Below, piece by piece: positions 2,303-7,850 of a stretch of DNA of 7,850 nt (positions are counted from its first letter, which is position 1; each line of letters begins with the position of its first letter). The notes under the pieces are model-generated. The model made no database searches and was not told where the DNA came from. It saw only the letters and a list, made by a program, of their open reading frames with translations. The position numbers were made by a program, and so were the translations under genes. Origin of the DNA: Casimicrobiaceae bacterium (GTDB lineage Bacteria > Pseudomonadota > Gammaproteobacteria > Burkholderiales > Casimicrobiaceae); assembly GCA_955652025.1 (NCBI GenBank), contig CATPAO010000146.1:1-7850 (forward strand). The letters run 5' to 3'.

Positions 2303-3187
2303 CTACCGAAACGCCGTCGAACGCGCCATGGCGCCGCGCGTGGCGAGCGCCGCGGCCGAAATGATCAACGCACCTCCGGTGAGCGCGCGAAGATCCGGGA
2401 TTTCACCGAGTAAGAGCGCCGCCAATGCGATGCCGTAGACGGGCTCGAGAATGCTGACGATGCTCGCGGTTTGAGCGCTCATGCGTCGCATGCTCGCGAT
2501 GAACATCGTGTGCGCGAGCGCCGTGCAAAACACGCCGAGCGTCAGCACCAACGCCACGTCGCGCGGCGTGAGCGCGATAGTCGGCGCGGTGACCACGACG
2601 ACCGGCAAAAGCCATAACGCGGCAAATGCGTTCTGCCACAGCGCGAGCGGCGTCGCGCCGACGCGCGACACCCGCGCACGATTGGCGAGGGTCAACAGCG
2701 CGAACGTGAGACCGGAGACGACGCCCCACGCAAGACCCCGCACGGTAGCACTCGACCATGAGAATTCCGGCACGAGCAGCGCCAGTCCGACGATGACCAG
2801 CGATACTTCGGCGAACTCGCGTGCGATTGGAAGGCGTCGGCGCGCAACAGTCTCGAACACCATGACGAACACGGGAAAGCTCGCGAATCCGAGAAGTCCG
2901 GTCGCGACGTTCGATATCTGGACGGCGGCAAAGAACGTCACCCAGTGCAGCGCAAGCAGCGCGCCCGTCGCGGCGAACGTTGCGTTCGGCCGGAGGATCC
3001 GTTGCCGCGTCATGCGCGCGACCACCGCCAGTGTGATGGCCGCGACGACCGTGCGCCCGAGGACGATGACGACTGGCGGCAGCGCGATCCACTTGCCGAA
3101 CAGCGCCGCAAAGCCGAACAACGCGACGGCAACGTGCAGCACAACCAGGGCGGTGGAGGAGCGCATACGAAGAACGTTGGGATCCAC
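2303..3187 (-). CDS. EamA/DMT-superfamily transporter (ten-helix permease)
   Basis: An inner-membrane protein of up to 294 residues with two repeated five-helix EamA halves. Hydrophobic segments are near residues 12-30, 36-57, 70-89, 93-112, 124-140, 150-168, 180-199, 208-229, 237-260 and 266-283. The end of the second half shows S-I-L-E-P-V-Y-G-I-A-L-A followed by L-L-L-G-E, the conserved E-P-x...G-E pattern of EamA domains; the first half has the matching H-W-V-T-F-F-A-A and F-A-S-F-P-V-F. Relatives export amino acids, amines or other small metabolites, but the substrate cannot be predicted from sequence. The start is uncertain: the GTG at 3187 gives 294 residues, while the ATG at 3166 (codon 8) starts just before the first helix and is equally plausible; neither has a convincing ribosome binding site. 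It is first in the minus-strand operon with gntK and metC, and is divergent from the glutamine-synthetase-like gene. Confidence 0.92.
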   Translation of the reverse strand: MDPNVLRMRSSTALVVLHVAVALFGFAALFGKWIALPPVVIVLGRTVVAAITLAVVARMTRQRILRPNATFAATGALLALHWVTFFAAVQISNVATGLLGFASFPVFVMVFETVARRRLPIAREFAEVSLVIVGLALLVPEFSWSSATVRGLAWGVVSGLTFALLTLANRARVSRVGATPLALWQNAFAALWLLPVVVVTAPTIALTPRDVALVLTLGVFCTALAHTMFIASMRRMSAQTASIVSILEPVYGIALAALLLGEIPDLRALTGGALIISAAALATRGAMARSTAFR

Positions 3188-3304: not shown

Positions 3305-4678
3305 ATGCAGGTTCCGGCCACGCCCGCTCAAGTCATCGCCGCCGTGCGCAAGTCGCCGGGACATCGAGTCAAGGTCGCCGTCTCCGACATCGACGGTATT
3401 CTGCGCGGCAAGTACATCCACAAGGACAAATTCGCGTCGGCCGTCGAAGGCGGCTTCGGTTTCTGCGACGTCGTCTTCGGATGGGACTCTCAGGACGTCT
3501 GCTATGACAACACGACGCTGACCGGCTGGCACAAGGGCTTCCCGGACGCGTTGGCGCGGCTCGACCTGTCGACGCATCGCCGCGTGCCGTGGGACGACAA
3601 CGTCGATTTCTTCCTCGGCGAATTCGTGATGCAAAAGAACGGTCGCGAAGTGGCGTTCCCGCTCGATGGCCGGCAGGTGCTGAAGCGCGTGCTGAAACGC
3701 GCCCAAAAGCTTGGACTCAATCCGATGTGCGGTCTCGAATTCGAATGGTTCAACTTCGCGGAGACGCCGCAGTCGTGGGCCGACAAGAAGGGGGTCGGTC
3801 CGACGCCGATCACGCCAGGCATGTTCGGCTACTCGCTGCTTCGCGCCAATCATTCGCGTGAATTTTTCGCCGCGCTGTTCGCGGACACGGCCGCATTCGG
3901 CATTCCCATCGAAGGCTTGCACACCGAGACCGGCCCCGGTGTGTTCGAAGTGGCAATCGTATTCTCCGAGGCGCTCGAGGCAGCCGATCGCGGGCTGCTG
4001 TTCAAGACCGCGGCCAAGGAGATCGGCGCGCGGTTCGGGATCATGCCGAGCTTTATGGCCAAGTGGAGCGCGCAATATCCAGGGTGCTCCGGACATTGCC
4101 ATCAATCTCTGTCGGACGGCAAGAAGAACGTCTTCTACGACGCCAAGGGCCGTCATTCGATGAGCCGCGTGTTCGAAGGCTATCTGGCCGGACAGCTCAA
4201 GCATTTGCTCGAGCTGGCACCGATGTTCTGGCCGACGGTGAACAGCTACAAGCGTCTTGTCGACGGCTTCTGGGCGCCGGTCAAACCGACGTGGGGCGTC
4301 GACAATCGGACCGCGAGCTTCCGCGTCCTGTCGGGATCGCCCAAGGCGACACGACTCGAAACGCGCTGTCCCGGCGCCGATGTGAATCCGTATCTCGCCG
4401 TCGCCGCATGCTTGGCCGCGGGACTCGCGGGGGTCGAGAGTTCGATGAAGCTCACGACCAAGCCGATCGAGGGCACGAACCTCGGCGCCGAGAACGTTCC
4501 GCGAGCGCCGCGCACATTGATCGAGACCACGCGGACTTTTCGTCAATCCGATTTCGCACGCGACTGGTTCGGCGACGATTTCGTCGACCACTTCGCCGCC
4601 ACTCGCGAGTGGGAATGGCGGCAGTGGCTCGATGCGGTGACCGATTGGGAGTTGAAACGCTACTTCGAGATCATTTGA
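3305..4678 (+). CDS. Glutamine-synthetase-family ligase, probable gamma-glutamylamine synthetase (PuuA/GlnA4-like)
   Basis: Probably joins the gamma-carboxyl of glutamate to an amine, using ATP, in the cytosol. The 457 residues comprise an N-terminal beta-grasp domain (VSDIDGILRGKYI, 27-38) and a catalytic domain. The active site looks intact by alignment from memory with E. coli GlnA: metal ligands E145 and E147 (GLEFEW), E208 (HTETGPG), E215 (FEV), H264 (SGHCHQSL) and E352 (LETRCPGAD); arginines R317 (NSYKRL), R335 and R340 (DNRTASFR) and R354; and the NPYLAVAA block at 361-368. Two features argue against an ordinary ammonia-using GlnA: the residue matching the ammonia-site Glu327 is W323 (GFWAP), as in amine-using relatives, and the C-terminal adenylylation tyrosine motif is not seen. 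Neighbouring ADH, PuuD-like hydrolase and aldehyde dehydrogenase genes support a catabolic gamma-glutamylation role. The start is set by GGGGAG six bases upstream. The substrate is unknown; ethanolamine or another amino alcohol fits the context. Confidence 0.93.
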   Translation: MQVPATPAQVIAAVRKSPGHRVKVAVSDIDGILRGKYIHKDKFASAVEGGFGFCDVVFGWDSQDVCYDNTTLTGWHKGFPDALARLDLSTHRRVPWDDNVDFFLGEFVMQKNGREVAFPLDGRQVLKRVLKRAQKLGLNPMCGLEFEWFNFAETPQSWADKKGVGPTPITPGMFGYSLLRANHSREFFAALFADTAAFGIPIEGLHTETGPGVFEVAIVFSEALEAADRGLLFKTAAKEIGARFGIMPSFMAKWSAQYPGCSGHCHQSLSDGKKNVFYDAKGRHSMSRVFEGYLAGQLKHLLELAPMFWPTVNSYKRLVDGFWAPVKPTWGVDNRTASFRVLSGSPKATRLETRCPGADVNPYLAVAACLAAGLAGVESSMKLTTKPIEGTNLGAENVPRAPRTLIETTRTFRQSDFARDWFGDDFVDHFAATREWEWRQWLDAVTDWELKRYFEII

Positions 4679-4729
4679 ATGCCGCGTCGCGACAGCGCCG
4701 TGACACCGCCGCGACCGGCTTAGGCCAGC

Positions 4730-5103
4730 TCAGGCGTCGGGCGAGACCAGAAGGCAGATCAGCACGTTGCCGGTTTCGATCGCATACGGGTTTGCCGCGC
4801 CCGGGTTGATGGGCAGGAACGTTCCGTTCGCCTCCGCAGTATCGACGTTGCTGTCGCTCGTAACGGCCTGAAATTCGGGTTGAAGGCAAACGCAGGGTTG
4901 TACACCAGCAGAATGATTTTCCACGGCGCCTTGAAAGCACCTGCGGTTCCGTCTTTCCCGAGTCCAGGGGCGCCGGTCAAAACGTGATCGTGATAGGCGA
5001 AACTACGCGGCACTCCTGGGTGATAGCACGGATCGCAGTTCGGCCGATAACCCGATGGAAGCGCTTTCGGGTCGTTCGGACGCCGGGCCGGCCGCGTTGC
5101 CAT
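4730..5103 (-). pseudogene. Probable frameshifted small gene of unknown function
   Basis: Two minus-strand frames join into one protein-like sequence of about 124 residues. The upstream part runs from an ATG at 5103 (or 5163, adding 20 residues) through NCDPCYHPG, FAYHDHVLTGAPG and APWKIILLVYNPAFAFN. The downstream part continues as QAVTSDSNVD, NGTFLPINPGAANPY and ETGNVLICLLVS, stopping at 4730. The switch falls at the minus-strand TTT at 4873-4871, where one additional T would restore a single frame. Composition is unlike the Arg/Ala-rich shadow frames elsewhere, and aligned family members with an F-x-D-H-V-L motif are vaguely familiar to me as uncharacterised proteins. No ribosome binding site is obvious at 5103. 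No catalytic motif is recognised. It lies antisense between the ligase and the ADH genes. Alternatives are a sequencing error in an intact gene, or a chance reading. The rest of the 4679-5148 gap shows nothing else I can support. Confidence 0.5.
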
Positions 5104-5148
5104 TCGCGGTAGGATTGCGGCTTTCGTCCACAAGACCTTAAGAATCGC

Positions 5149-6321
5149 ATGCCCGCCGTACATCGCTTTGCCTTTCCCACGACGATCCATTTCGGTCCCG
5201 GCGTACGTGCGCTCGTCGCCGATCACCTGACATCGCGAGGCGTCCAACGTCCGTTGGTCGTCACCGACCGCGCGCTGGCCGCATTGCCGGTGTTCAAGGG
5301 CTTCCTCGACGACCTGCCCGGGCTCGATGTCGCGATCTTTTCGGAGATCTGGGGCAACCCGGTGGCGAGCCAAGTCATGGCGGGGGCTGCGGCGTTCAAG
5401 ACCCACCGCGCCGACGGCGTCCTCGGCATCGGCGGCGGCGCGGCGCTCGACGTCGCGAAGGCGATCGCGCTGATGGCCGTGCATGACGGCGACATCCTCG
5501 AATATGCGTGGGACCATCCGCAGGTGCGGCCGATCGAAAGACCGCTACCCTATTTTGTCGCGCTCCCGACGACGGCGGGGACGGGTTCGGAGGTCGGACG
5601 GTCGTCGGTCATCTCCGACGACGCCACGCACCTCAAGAAGATCATCTTCTCGCCGGCGCTCCTCGCGAAGGTCGTTTTCGCCGATCCGGAACTGACGCTC
5701 GATTTGCCGGTTCTAACTACGGCGGCGACCGGAATGGATGCGCTCACGCATAACGTCGAATCTTATTTGTCGCCTGCCTATCACCCACTATGCGACGGCA
5801 TCGCGGTCGAAGGCGTACGCATCGCAGCGGCCGCGCTTCCCAAGGCGGTGCGAAATGGTCACGACGTGGCCGCGCGTGGCGATATGCTGATGAGCTCGAT
5901 GATGGGAGCGATCGCCTTCCAAAAGGATTTGGGCGCCGTGCATTCGTGCGCGCACGCGCTGTCGACGGTCGCCGACCTCCATCATGGTCTCGCCAACGGC
6001 ATCATGATCGACCACGTGATGCGCTTCAATTTGCCGGCGGCGACGATCAAGCTTGCCGAGCTCGCGCGCGTTGCAAGCGTGCCGGGCGGCGATCAGGGAT
6101 CCGACGCCGCGCGGGCGAACGCGTTCATAACGTGGCTAGGCATGCTCAAGGCGGAGATCGGCATTCCGGCGCGTCTCTCCGAGTATCGATCCTCCCGGCC
6201 CATCGTGAAGGCAGACTTCGATCGCCTTGCCGATATCGCCGTCGCGGACATCTGTCATCAGACCAACCCGCGGCCGTGCACCCGCGGCGATTTCGAACGG
6301 ATCTTCGCCGAGTCGTTTTAG
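5149..6321 (+). CDS. Iron-containing (group III) alcohol dehydrogenase
   Basis: An NAD(P)-dependent dehydrogenase of 390 residues, the usual length for the family. The dinucleotide-binding domain shows GIGGGAALDVAKA (93-105) and PTTAGTGSEVG (140-150). The four metal ligands expected for the Fe-ADH family are present: D197 and H201 in GMDALTHNVE, H265 in GAVHSCAHAL, and H279 in LHHGLANG. Family members oxidise or reduce small alcohols and diols; the metal may be iron or zinc. Here it is followed after 10 bp by a PuuD-like hydrolase and then an aldehyde dehydrogenase, and it occupies the oxidation step that PuuB, an FAD oxidase, performs in the E. coli putrescine pathway. This suggests it oxidises a gamma-glutamylated amino alcohol to the aldehyde (inference). 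The ATG at 5149 starts just before the conserved F-x-F-P-T...F-G-P-G strand; no good ribosome binding site or promoter is seen upstream. Confidence 0.93.
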   Translation: MPAVHRFAFPTTIHFGPGVRALVADHLTSRGVQRPLVVTDRALAALPVFKGFLDDLPGLDVAIFSEIWGNPVASQVMAGAAAFKTHRADGVLGIGGGAALDVAKAIALMAVHDGDILEYAWDHPQVRPIERPLPYFVALPTTAGTGSEVGRSSVISDDATHLKKIIFSPALLAKVVFADPELTLDLPVLTTAATGMDALTHNVESYLSPAYHPLCDGIAVEGVRIAAAALPKAVRNGHDVAARGDMLMSSMMGAIAFQKDLGAVHSCAHALSTVADLHHGLANGIMIDHVMRFNLPAATIKLAELARVASVPGGDQGSDAARANAFITWLGMLKAEIGIPARLSEYRSSRPIVKADFDRLADIAVADICHQTNPRPCTRGDFERIFAESF

Positions 6322-6331
6322 GGCCTGTCTG

Positions 6332-7132
6332 ATGACCACTCCGCTGTTGATCGGCGTCTCCGCCCGCATACATCATCCCGAGGGACCGGCACGCGACTTG
6401 GGCGGCGTCTATACCAAGACGCTGCACTACCTCGAACAATCGGTCGCACACTGGGTGATCTCGGCCAATGTGCTGGTGTTCATGATTCCGGCAATCGAGA
6501 GCGAGGGCCTGATCAAGCGTGGCGACATGCGGCTCTATCATTATGCGGAGGCCCTTGATGGCGTCGTGTTGCAAGGGGGCGCCGACGTCGCGCCCGAATC
6601 CTATGGCATGACAGCCGAGCGTCCCGAGTGGGCGGGCGATCGCGTGCGCGACCGCTACGAGATCGAACTGTTCGAAGCCTTCGTCGGCAAGGGCAAGCCG
6701 GTGCTCGGCATCTGCCGCGGGTGCCAGCTGATCAACGTCGCGTTTGGCGGCACGCTGCATCAGGACATCGCCACCGCGCTGCCGGAGGCGCTCAACCATC
6801 GCAACGATCAATACGAGCTCAATTTCCATCCGATGCGATTCGTGCAGGGGACGCGCCTCGCGCGGCTCTATCCCACGCGCAAGGATGCGACTATCAATAC
6901 GATCCACCATCAAGCGGTCAACAAGCTCGGACGCGGGCTGGACGTCGAGGCCGTGGCCGTCCCGGACAACATCATCGAAGCAATACGCTGGCGCGGACCG
7001 AGCTATGTGTTCGGCGTGCAGTGGCATCCGGAATTCATGTTCGGTCCGGCGATGAGCGCGAATCATCTCGACGGCGCGCCGATCCTGAACGAGTTTCTCG
7101 ACGCCGTCCGCGAACGCAAAAAAAGCAAGTAG
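6332..7132 (+). CDS. PuuD-like gamma-glutamyl amide hydrolase (class I glutamine amidotransferase fold)
   Basis: Likely hydrolyses the gamma-glutamyl bond of a catabolic intermediate, releasing glutamate and the free product, in the cytosol. E. coli PuuD (gamma-glutamyl-GABA hydrolase) is the reference relative. The 266 residues hold the oxyanion block LQGGADVAPESYG (80-92), nucleophile C128 in GICRGCQLINVAFGG, a T-L-H-Q-D segment right after it, the H-H-Q motif at 192-194, and the remaining catalytic pair H232 and E234 in VQWHPEF. The ATG at 6332 is chosen because the protein then begins P-L-L-I-G-V-S, the family's first strand; longer starts inside the ADH gene add Arg/Ser-rich sequence. 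An AGGG eight bases upstream, overlapping the ADH stop codon, is a weak ribosome binding site. The gap to the ADH stop is 10 bp and that to the downstream TTG start is 7 bp, so the three genes look co-transcribed. Confidence 0.92.
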   Translation: MTTPLLIGVSARIHHPEGPARDLGGVYTKTLHYLEQSVAHWVISANVLVFMIPAIESEGLIKRGDMRLYHYAEALDGVVLQGGADVAPESYGMTAERPEWAGDRVRDRYEIELFEAFVGKGKPVLGICRGCQLINVAFGGTLHQDIATALPEALNHRNDQYELNFHPMRFVQGTRLARLYPTRKDATINTIHHQAVNKLGRGLDVEAVAVPDNIIEAIRWRGPSYVFGVQWHPEFMFGPAMSANHLDGAPILNEFLDAVRERKKSK

Positions 7133-7139
7133 AAGAGCT

Positions 7140-7850
7140 TTGAAAATCGTCAATCCAGCCACCGGCGCGCTCGTGTCCGAGGTGCCGGTCGACGGGCACA
7201 AGATGGTGTACGTCAAGTACCAGCGCGCGCGCGCTGCGCAGCCCGCCTGGGCCGCAGTCTCGCTACGCAAGCGCCTTGCCGCGATCGGCAAATTCCGCGA
7301 GCGTGTCGTCGCCATGCAGGACACGCTGGCGCGCACGTTGACCGACGAAGTCGGCAAGCCGATCCGCCAATCGCGCAACGAGTTGAAAGGCCTCACCGCC
7401 CGCCTCGATTTCTTTCTCGCGGAATCCGCCCGCGCGCTACGCGGCGAAACGGTCTTCAAGCAGGCGGAGCAAAGGCTCGAGGAGCGGATATCGCACGAGC
7501 CGCTTGGCGTGATCGCCAATATCTCGGCGTGGAACTATCCGTACTTCGTCGGCAGCAACGTGTTCCTGCCGGCGTTGGTCGCGGGCAACGCGGTGCTCTA
7601 CAAGCCGTCCGAATACGCGACGCTCACCGGCTTGCATATCACCGAAATGCTTCATCAATCGGGTGTACCTGCCGACATATTCGTTCCCGTGATCGGCGAA
7701 GGCGCGGCGGGCGCAGCGCTGCTGCGACAGCCGATCGACGGCGTCTTTTTCACGGGCTCCTACGCGACGGGCGCCCGGATCGCCGCGAGCGCAGGACGCC
7801 GGATGATCAAAGTTCAGCTCGAACTGGGCGGCAAGGATCCGATCTATGTG
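7140..7850 (+). CDS. Aldehyde dehydrogenase family protein, N-terminal part (3' end outside window)
   Basis: An NAD(P)-dependent aldehyde dehydrogenase, open through the right edge (237 codons seen). Visible features are the N-terminal I-V-N-P-A-T-G, the N132 catalytic asparagine in ISAWNYPYF, K155 in YKPSE for cofactor binding, the FTGS turn at 204-207, and E228 in LELGGKDP, the general base. The catalytic cysteine would lie just past the window. The frame has no ATG or GTG upstream: the only start fitting the family's usual M-K-I-V-N-P-A-T-G opening is TTG at 7140, seven bases after the upstream stop. A GAAGAG lies at 7132-7137, only two bases away, which is too close for a normal ribosome binding site, so coupling to the upstream gene is likely. 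In context it should oxidise the gamma-glutamyl amino-aldehyde made by the ADH to the acid, the role of PuuC in the putrescine pathway (inference). Confidence 0.94.
   Translation, partial: MKIVNPATGALVSEVPVDGHKMVYVKYQRARAAQPAWAAVSLRKRLAAIGKFRERVVAMQDTLARTLTDEVGKPIRQSRNELKGLTARLDFFLAESARALRGETVFKQAEQRLEERISHEPLGVIANISAWNYPYFVGSNVFLPALVAGNAVLYKPSEYATLTGLHITEMLHQSGVPADIFVPVIGEGAAGAALLRQPIDGVFFTGSYATGARIAASAGRRMIKVQLELGGKDPIYV

Follow-up and report, generated by a model that had tools for sequence, protein, structure and literature searches.

A predicted gamma-glutamyl route for ethanolamine in a Casimicrobiaceae bacterium and its recurrent phosphonate gene context

The stretch of DNA analysed here (the window) comprises 7,850 nucleotides and represents one whole contig (C146 of genome G000) in the draft genome of a Casimicrobiaceae bacterium (2.78 Mb in 400 contigs, 67% complete). 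Its right-hand part carries four genes, which encode a glutamine synthetase (GS)-fold ligase, an iron-containing alcohol dehydrogenase (Fe-ADH, or ADH for short), a C26 class I amidotransferase-type hydrolase and an aldehyde dehydrogenase (ALDH).

3305..4678, + strand, ATG start: GS-fold ligase, 457 amino acids, predicted gamma-glutamylethanolamide synthetase (PF00120, 301 bits)
5149..6321, + strand, ATG start: Fe-ADH, 390 amino acids, predicted gamma-glutamylethanolamide dehydrogenase (PF00465/PF25137, 143/144 bits)
6332..7132, + strand, ATG start: C26 class I amidotransferase-type hydrolase, 266 amino acids, predicted gamma-glutamylglycine hydrolase (PF07722, 181 bits)
7140..7850, + strand, TTG start, cut by the contig end: N-terminal half (residues 1-237) of an ALDH, predicted gamma-glutamyl-aminoacetaldehyde dehydrogenase (PF00171, 191 bits)

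Open reading frames and Pfam matches bear out the original prediction that these four genes form a cluster on one strand, with the last three tightly packed: only 10 bp separate ADH from hydrolase and 7 bp hydrolase from ALDH, and 470 bp lie between ligase and ADH. Among the matches listed, all four proteins stay below the NCBIfam equivalog cut-offs, and names such as PuuA or PuuD would therefore overstate what is known. The earlier label of a ‘PuuA-like’ ligase is accurate for the family but otherwise loose, because identity to Escherichia coli PuuA is 28% and the score against the equivalog of this gamma-glutamylputrescine synthetase is 165.9 bits with a cut-off of 650. The GlnA equivalog is missed as well (209 versus 429), the GlnIII cut-off lies likewise far above the score, and a second, stronger PF00120 protein exists in the same genome. 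Identity of the ligase is 26% with the GlnA-like protein encoded in the same genome, 32% over the aligned part with the solved chain 5dm3, presumably a Chromohalobacter salexigens protein, 39% with a protein annotated as IpuC and 50% with the ligase of locus L058, which belongs to another family of the same order and has the operon order ligase-ALDH-ADH.

In alignments read by eye, the metal residues (E145, E147, E208, E215, H264 and E352) as well as R317, R335, R340, R354 and H266 are kept in the ligase, which retains the residues that bind the two metals, glutamate and ATP. The flap glutamate of the ammonia site is absent, with W323 at the position of GlnA Glu327, and the alignment places no tyrosine at the position of GlnA Tyr179. 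The numbering of GlnA follows PMC6529630; passages of the same paper describe Glu327 and Tyr179 as replaced also in PauA7 and GlnA4, with W296 and F331, respectively, as the flap residue, and a section of PMC9397018 reports GlnA4 to be without glutamine synthetase activity. Two relatives carry aberrant ligase genes, split over two frames in G034 (L057:7935-9247) and with an in-frame stop near the start in G008 (L033:231-305), which may be due to sequence errors or decay. The ADH aligns over its full length with a solved Fe-ADH, and both share, by eye, the Asp/His/His/His motifs that we take to be the metal site. In the hydrolase, the motifs GICRGCQ and GVQWHPE, presumably catalytic, align with 3fij and contain the Cys and His-Pro-Glu motifs as in PuuD-like enzymes; identity to E. 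coli PuuD is 33% over 168 amino acids, with the PuuD equivalog cut-off being missed (84/266).

The four genes probably form a gamma-glutamyl route from ethanolamine to glycine with return of glutamate, a reading to which we assign a probability of about 80%. The ligase, with ATP, would join the gamma-carboxyl group of glutamate to the amine of ethanolamine; the Fe-ADH would oxidize the alcohol of the resulting gamma-glutamylethanolamide to a masked aldehyde, which the ALDH would oxidize further to gamma-glutamylglycine; and the C26 enzyme would finally hydrolyse the latter to glycine and glutamate. All of these reactions as well as the substrate we infer from what is observed, i.e. the genes, their families, the kept residues, synteny, and an ethanolamine permease or genes for 2-aminoethylphosphonate (AEP) as neighbours in relatives. 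Such a gamma-glutamyl route for ethanolamine, in which a C26 hydrolase replaces a PF05013 enzyme, is a well-supported prediction of a known kind.

Conservation of the gene set was followed in 61 genomes, i.e. the source genome and 60 relatives (ligase threshold 1e-60), and in 80 named loci (1.226 Mb), the best 80 of at least 575 as picked by similarity in a scan with the ligase alignment. These named loci are not independent, contig ends truncate many of them, and six seem to duplicate genomes from the set of relatives (L092/G019, L093/G002, L094/G013, L097/G001, L150/G052 and L160/G010). Most belong to Burkholderiales (Ramlibacter, Polaromonas, Aquabacterium, Caenimonas, Rubrivivax, Rhodoferax, Curvibacter), and Bacteroidota, Bdellovibrionota, Planctomycetota and others are also included. 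The association of ligase and ADH exceeds chance: all 29 of the 61 genomes that have the ligase also have the ADH (as fragments in G001 and G003), in 28 of them on one contig within 2.5 kb, and a co-directional ADH follows downstream in 61 of the 68 named loci with at least 2 kb downstream. Where at least 4.5 kb are available (58 loci), ADH is found in 53, ALDH in 48 and C26 in 42. With regard to the order across genomes, proposed as a check, a C26 hydrolase was not found in four of the 29 ligase genomes, and the ALDH is placed between ligase and ADH in G049 and G051 of a deeper group. Absence of the ADH from the syntenic cluster, which had been named as speaking against the proposal, did not emerge as a pattern.

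Farther afield, a set in Legionella lytica is annotated as glutamine synthetase, aldehyde dehydrogenase, iron-containing alcohol dehydrogenase and GMP synthase, and relatives of the ligase from Burkholderia vietnamiensis and from Rhodobacteraceae plasmids have no ADH in the cluster. On a Rhizobium leguminosarum plasmid (L181:33-9362), a PhnW-like transaminase (PRK13479 329/296, TIGR02326 312/400.8), a C26-type hydrolase, a GMC oxidoreductase, ligase and ALDH lie in a row, with the GMC enzyme where the Fe-ADH would stand.

The presence of PuuA-, PuuC- and PuuD-like families could also suggest a Puu-type putrescine pathway, yet Puu equivalog cut-offs are missed widely and an Fe-ADH needs an alcohol. 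Moreover, a PuuB-like amine oxidase, the downstream occurrence of which the original prediction had listed against itself, was not found in the searched neighbourhoods, with no match at 1e-10 in loci L033-L085 or the 80 named loci, and the best match in the source genome reaches only 25.5 bits and lies in the phnA region. Putrescine as the substrate is thus hardly credible.

Evidence for ethanolamine comes from the neighbours of the ligase, which were counted in the 65 named loci with at least 2 kb upstream: a co-directional PhnW gene is present in 23, an ethanolamine permease gene within 3 kb of the ligase in 11, both in none and neither in 31. TIGR00908 is the best match for all 11 permeases; its cut-off of 381.75 bits is passed by seven (405-588 bits; L107, L112, L161, L166, L167, L170 and L171) and just missed by four (360-376 bits; L115, L118, L143 and L150, the last of which is G052). 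These loci fall in Bacteroidota, Bdellovibrionota and Betaproteobacteria. EutR-like AraC regulators lie near four permease loci (L107, L115, L118 and L143) and also between PhnW and ligase in Polaromonas sp. OV174 (L123), with PRK10130 as the best match (133-152 bits, below the cut-off of 319); a sixth AraC regulator of this group occurs at L136, the profile scores covering the other five. EutB was not found in any of the 29 ligase genomes, including the 67% complete source genome, and is present in five of the 32 others. Permeases and EutR-like regulators, together with the missing PuuB and EutB and the adjacency of the ADH, support the earlier proposal of a gamma-glutamylated amino alcohol with ethanolamine as the first candidate. 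On the ligase tree (three of the 80 ligases dropped as too short, bootstrap not fully settled, L183 and L179 on long branches), the permease and PhnW labels each need five changes, with four of those in the permease label imposed by starred branches; each context must therefore have been gained or lost several times.

The same chemistry might serve another substrate, such as alaninol, propanolamine, N-methylethanolamine or isopropylamine, as in the Ipu pathway. Indeed, the ligase is nearer to the annotated IpuC than to either PuuA or 5dm3, and a sarcosine/dimethylglycine-dehydrogenase-like gene adjoins the cluster in G027. However, the recurrent neighbours are the ethanolamine permease and the EutR-like regulator and not the P450, ferredoxin and reductase genes of ipuC, and only two of the 80 named loci, many of them truncated by contig ends, have dimethylglycine-dehydrogenase-like genes in the 8 kb downstream (L148 and L154), which makes a different amino alcohol or amine unlikely. 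In G027 (L046:3036-6502), the dehydrogenase-like gene and one for a FocA-type transporter come after the cluster.

The other recurrent context of the presumptive ethanolamine cluster is AEP degradation. In the source genome, contig C190 terminates in residues 240-454 of an ALDH of the same family (motif NTGQSCC, 88% identical to G008), after which come a folD-type gene (tetrahydrofolate dehydrogenase/cyclohydrolase) and a DUF4743/NUDIX gene, both assigned by homology to the L040 copies, and then phnW, phnU2, phnT2, phnS2, the gene for a phnR_burk GntR regulator, phnA and phnY, with each phn gene above its equivalog cut-off. Since this gene order, here and there interrupted by additional genes, adjoins ligase-ADH-hydrolase-ALDH in longer contigs of the relatives G008, G021, G007 and G016, the window's cluster most likely runs on into the full AEP degradation gene set, across a junction with C190 that we infer rather than read. 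At the very end of C190 (L061:16813-17616), the C-terminal part of the ALDH is followed by a portion of it repeated in inverted and diverged form, which suggests an artefact of assembly or a mixture of strains.

AEP genes are often found just downstream of the cluster in the window's genus. In the 23 named loci with PhnW, this gene lies within 2.5 kb upstream of the ligase and is joined in 19 by PhnU2 of the AEP importer; the typical arrangement is a divergon of phnY-phnA-phnR facing phnS2-T2-U2-W-ligase-ADH-hydrolase-ALDH. The one-contig genome G022 has phnS2-T2-U2-W-ligase-ADH-ALDH-HAD on one strand, with no C26 homologue found. Among the 29 ligase genomes, PhnW is located no more than 12 kb from ligase or ADH in 15, at a distance of 26 kb in G058 and on another contig in 10, including the source genome; at 1e-60 it was not found in three, of which G034 has a fragment at a contig edge. 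Ethanolamine is the head group of phosphatidylethanolamine and AEP that of phosphonolipids. As the cluster adjoins a full AEP set (phnY, phnA, phnR, phnS2T2U2 and phnW), the region in the window's lineage likely serves both of these lipid head-group amines.

The AEP link recurs not only physically but, in one lineage, apparently also by regulation, as judged from a predicted operator. Upstream of phnS2 in relatives there is a palindrome, ATTGTNNACAAT, often in the form AGATTGTNNACAATCT, of which the 80 named loci contain 20 exact copies. Eighteen are located within 260 bp upstream of a phnS2 or phnW match, a count that is partly circular because the motif was derived from such regions; the other two, which were not used in the derivation, precede the ligase by 147 bp in L126 and by 100 bp in L127, and none occurs elsewhere. 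L126 and L127 are sister rows on the tree and therefore count as one event. In both, a phnR_burk regulator gene (326.3 bits in the L126 genome and 321.9 in L127; cut-off 271.5) and an amino-acid-type permease gene are divergent from the ligase, and PhnW had no match in either genome, both of which may be incomplete. The source genome has one palindrome site, upstream of phnS2. A shared operator at the window's own ligase was rejected, with none present upstream at up to one mismatch, and no strong palindrome stood out upstream of the ligases of the window's family. The phnR_burk family is of the GntR type, whereas the PhnR described in parts of PMC9311074 is of the LysR type.

One could also think of the cluster as a working part of AEP breakdown itself, given that the PhnW gene lies just upstream in 23 of 65 loci and no farther than 12 kb away in 15 of the 29 ligase genomes, and that L126 and L127 have a predicted phnR-type operator in front of the ligase. 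Yet phnW, phnY and phnA suffice for AEP by the known route, and the source genome has all three above cut-offs (phnY and phnA likewise in Aquabacterium, L117). In addition, PhnW is absent from 13 of 15 checked ligase genomes, mostly drafts that may be incomplete, it is kept without the ligase in G005, G012 and G017, and AEP offers no alcohol to an ADH. A direct role in AEP breakdown is thus quite improbable, and for the same reasons a requirement of the ligase for AEP use was rejected.

A HAD-IB phosphatase gene (e.g. L117:14749-15396 and L054:4160-4849) also belongs to the PhnW context. This was counted in the 41 named loci that contain an ADH and extend for at least 2 kb upstream and 5.5 kb downstream: the phosphatase gene is found with the cluster in 14 of 16 with PhnW context, in none of eight with permease and in none of 17 others, figures that are uncorrected for kinship. 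Histidinol-phosphatase is the best match (239 of 280 bits in L117), TIGR01490 is over its cut-off, and activity on an amino-alcohol phosphate would be a plausible role. The phosphatase was set aside as a component of the window's own system, because the 28 of 61 genomes (25 of 31 genera) with a homologue include many that lack the ligase, and all 22 genomes of the window's genus are without one.

In returning to the ethanolamine route, a tentative extension, possible but doubtful, is that Burkholderiales use ethanolamine and AEP within a single regulated unit. Through ATTGTNNACAAT, a GntR regulator of the phnR_burk type would switch on phnS2T2U2-phnW together with ligase-ADH-hydrolase-ALDH, PhnS2T2U2 would import both amines and thus replace the ethanolamine permease, and HAD-IB, where it follows the ALDH, would free ethanolamine from phosphoethanolamine. 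In some genomes this neighbourhood is one co-directional run under one predicted operator. If so, a single neighbourhood for both amines would, in Burkholderiales, tie together the recovery of carbon, nitrogen and phosphorus from lipids, and regulators and transporters with a phosphonate-specific annotation might serve ethanolamine too, with predictions on transporter specificity and regulation following from this.

Several observations weigh against the route from ethanolamine to glycine. Neither permease nor co-directional PhnW accompanies the ligase in 31 of the 65 loci, three of which (L092, L093 and L160) have PhnW downstream instead, and the TIGR00908 permease is absent from the 67% complete source genome and from all ligase genomes among the relatives except G052. 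Asp50 of the GlnA ammonia site aligns, across a gap, with D68 of the ligase and looks kept, and the identity to 5dm3 is low. The ADH is missing in seven of the 68 named loci, and DAO-type FAD oxidases (DadA- or dimethylglycine-dehydrogenase-like) occur in six of the 80. The hydrolase forms the weakest link, as the C26 gene has no match at 1e-25 in four of the 29 ligase genomes (G022, G027, G034 and G051) and is present in seven genomes without the ligase. Finally, a single transcript is uncertain because the 470-bp gap between ligase and ADH holds a broken antisense frame.

In this gap (4679-5148), protein-like stretches of the antisense frame are spread over two frames, perhaps representing a broken gene, with its pieces (4736-5103) having no Pfam match; in relatives, the gap carries other inserts, i.e. 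a GNAT acetyltransferase, an SBP_bac_5 binding protein or a Xaa-Pro dipeptidase. Same-genus genomes without ligase, ADH and ALDH (L062, L063 and L064) retain, beside phnW, a C26 gene of 76-77% identity that is flanked by EamA and folD. Upstream of the cluster, on the opposite strand, the window contains genes for an EamA transporter (2303-3187), a gluconokinase-type kinase and a cystathionine beta-lyase, and the contig opens with a TPR protein fragment. EamA as an ethanolamine importer was considered and rejected, as G005, G012 and G017, which lack the ligase, still have it at this position. Beyond the cystathionine beta-lyase, many relatives (L037, L040, L041, L043, L044, L048, L049 and L052) have a Liv-type ABC permease (PF02653) and a binding protein, often near a gene of about 1170 codons with Pyr_redox_2 (PF07992) as its sole match.

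How does this cluster compare with known systems? The closest is the gamma-glutamyl ethanolamine pathway of C. salexigens, for which Table 2 of PMC9397018 gives PF00120, PF00465, PF00171 and PF05013. The first three families, those of ligase, Fe-dehydrogenase and ALDH, recur in the window, and the predicted reactions are the same. The hydrolase differs, being PF07722 in the window (PF05013 was not sought elsewhere in the genome), as does the gene order of ligase-ADH-hydrolase-ALDH, and the TRAP (tripartite ATP-independent periplasmic) ethanolamine importer of C. salexigens and Phaeobacter is not among the window's genes, with none sought elsewhere. The status of the C. salexigens pathway is given as an in silico prediction in a passage of PMC6529630, and as demonstrated there and in Agrobacterium in one of PMC10132767. 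According to portions of the latter paper, proteins of the ethanolamine operon of Phaeobacter sp. MED193 rise on phosphorylethanolamine, and its authors tie the operon to the use of lipid head groups. By description, its ethanolamine gamma-glutamylase, two dehydrogenases and gamma-glutamylglycine amidohydrolase resemble what is predicted for the window, and it differs in its TRAP importer EtoVWX and RpiR regulator, where the window's relatives have AEP genes or an APC (amino acid-polyamine-organocation) permease.

In the glnA4 cluster of Streptomyces coelicolor, again by description in parts of PMC6529630, the gamma-glutamylethanolamide synthetase is characterized, ALDH and hydrolase are predicted as in the window, and the regulator is different. 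Where the original prediction named an alcohol dehydrogenase for this organism, the figure legend of this mBio paper gives a short-chain dehydrogenase, unlike the window's Fe-ADH, while Table 2 of PMC9397018 places SCO1611 in the Fe-dehydrogenase row. E. coli puuABCD shares the families of ligase, ALDH and C26 hydrolase as well as masked intermediates with the window, but has the amine oxidase PuuB in place of the Fe-ADH, with identities of 28-33%. The ipu genes on the Paenarthrobacter plasmid pTC2 include the GS-fold ligase that is 39% identical to that of the window, but their neighbours are annotated as P450, ferredoxin, ferredoxin reductase and short-chain dehydrogenase, unlike those of the window. 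No link of AEP genes to a gamma-glutamyl ethanolamine pathway came up in searches of open-licence literature, including the sections consulted of PMC9311074, PMC5351497 and PMC10132767. The gamma-glutamyl ethanolamine pathway itself is already published (Chromohalobacter, Phaeobacter, Streptomyces), and it is the second, phosphonate context of the ethanolamine cluster that seems to be new.

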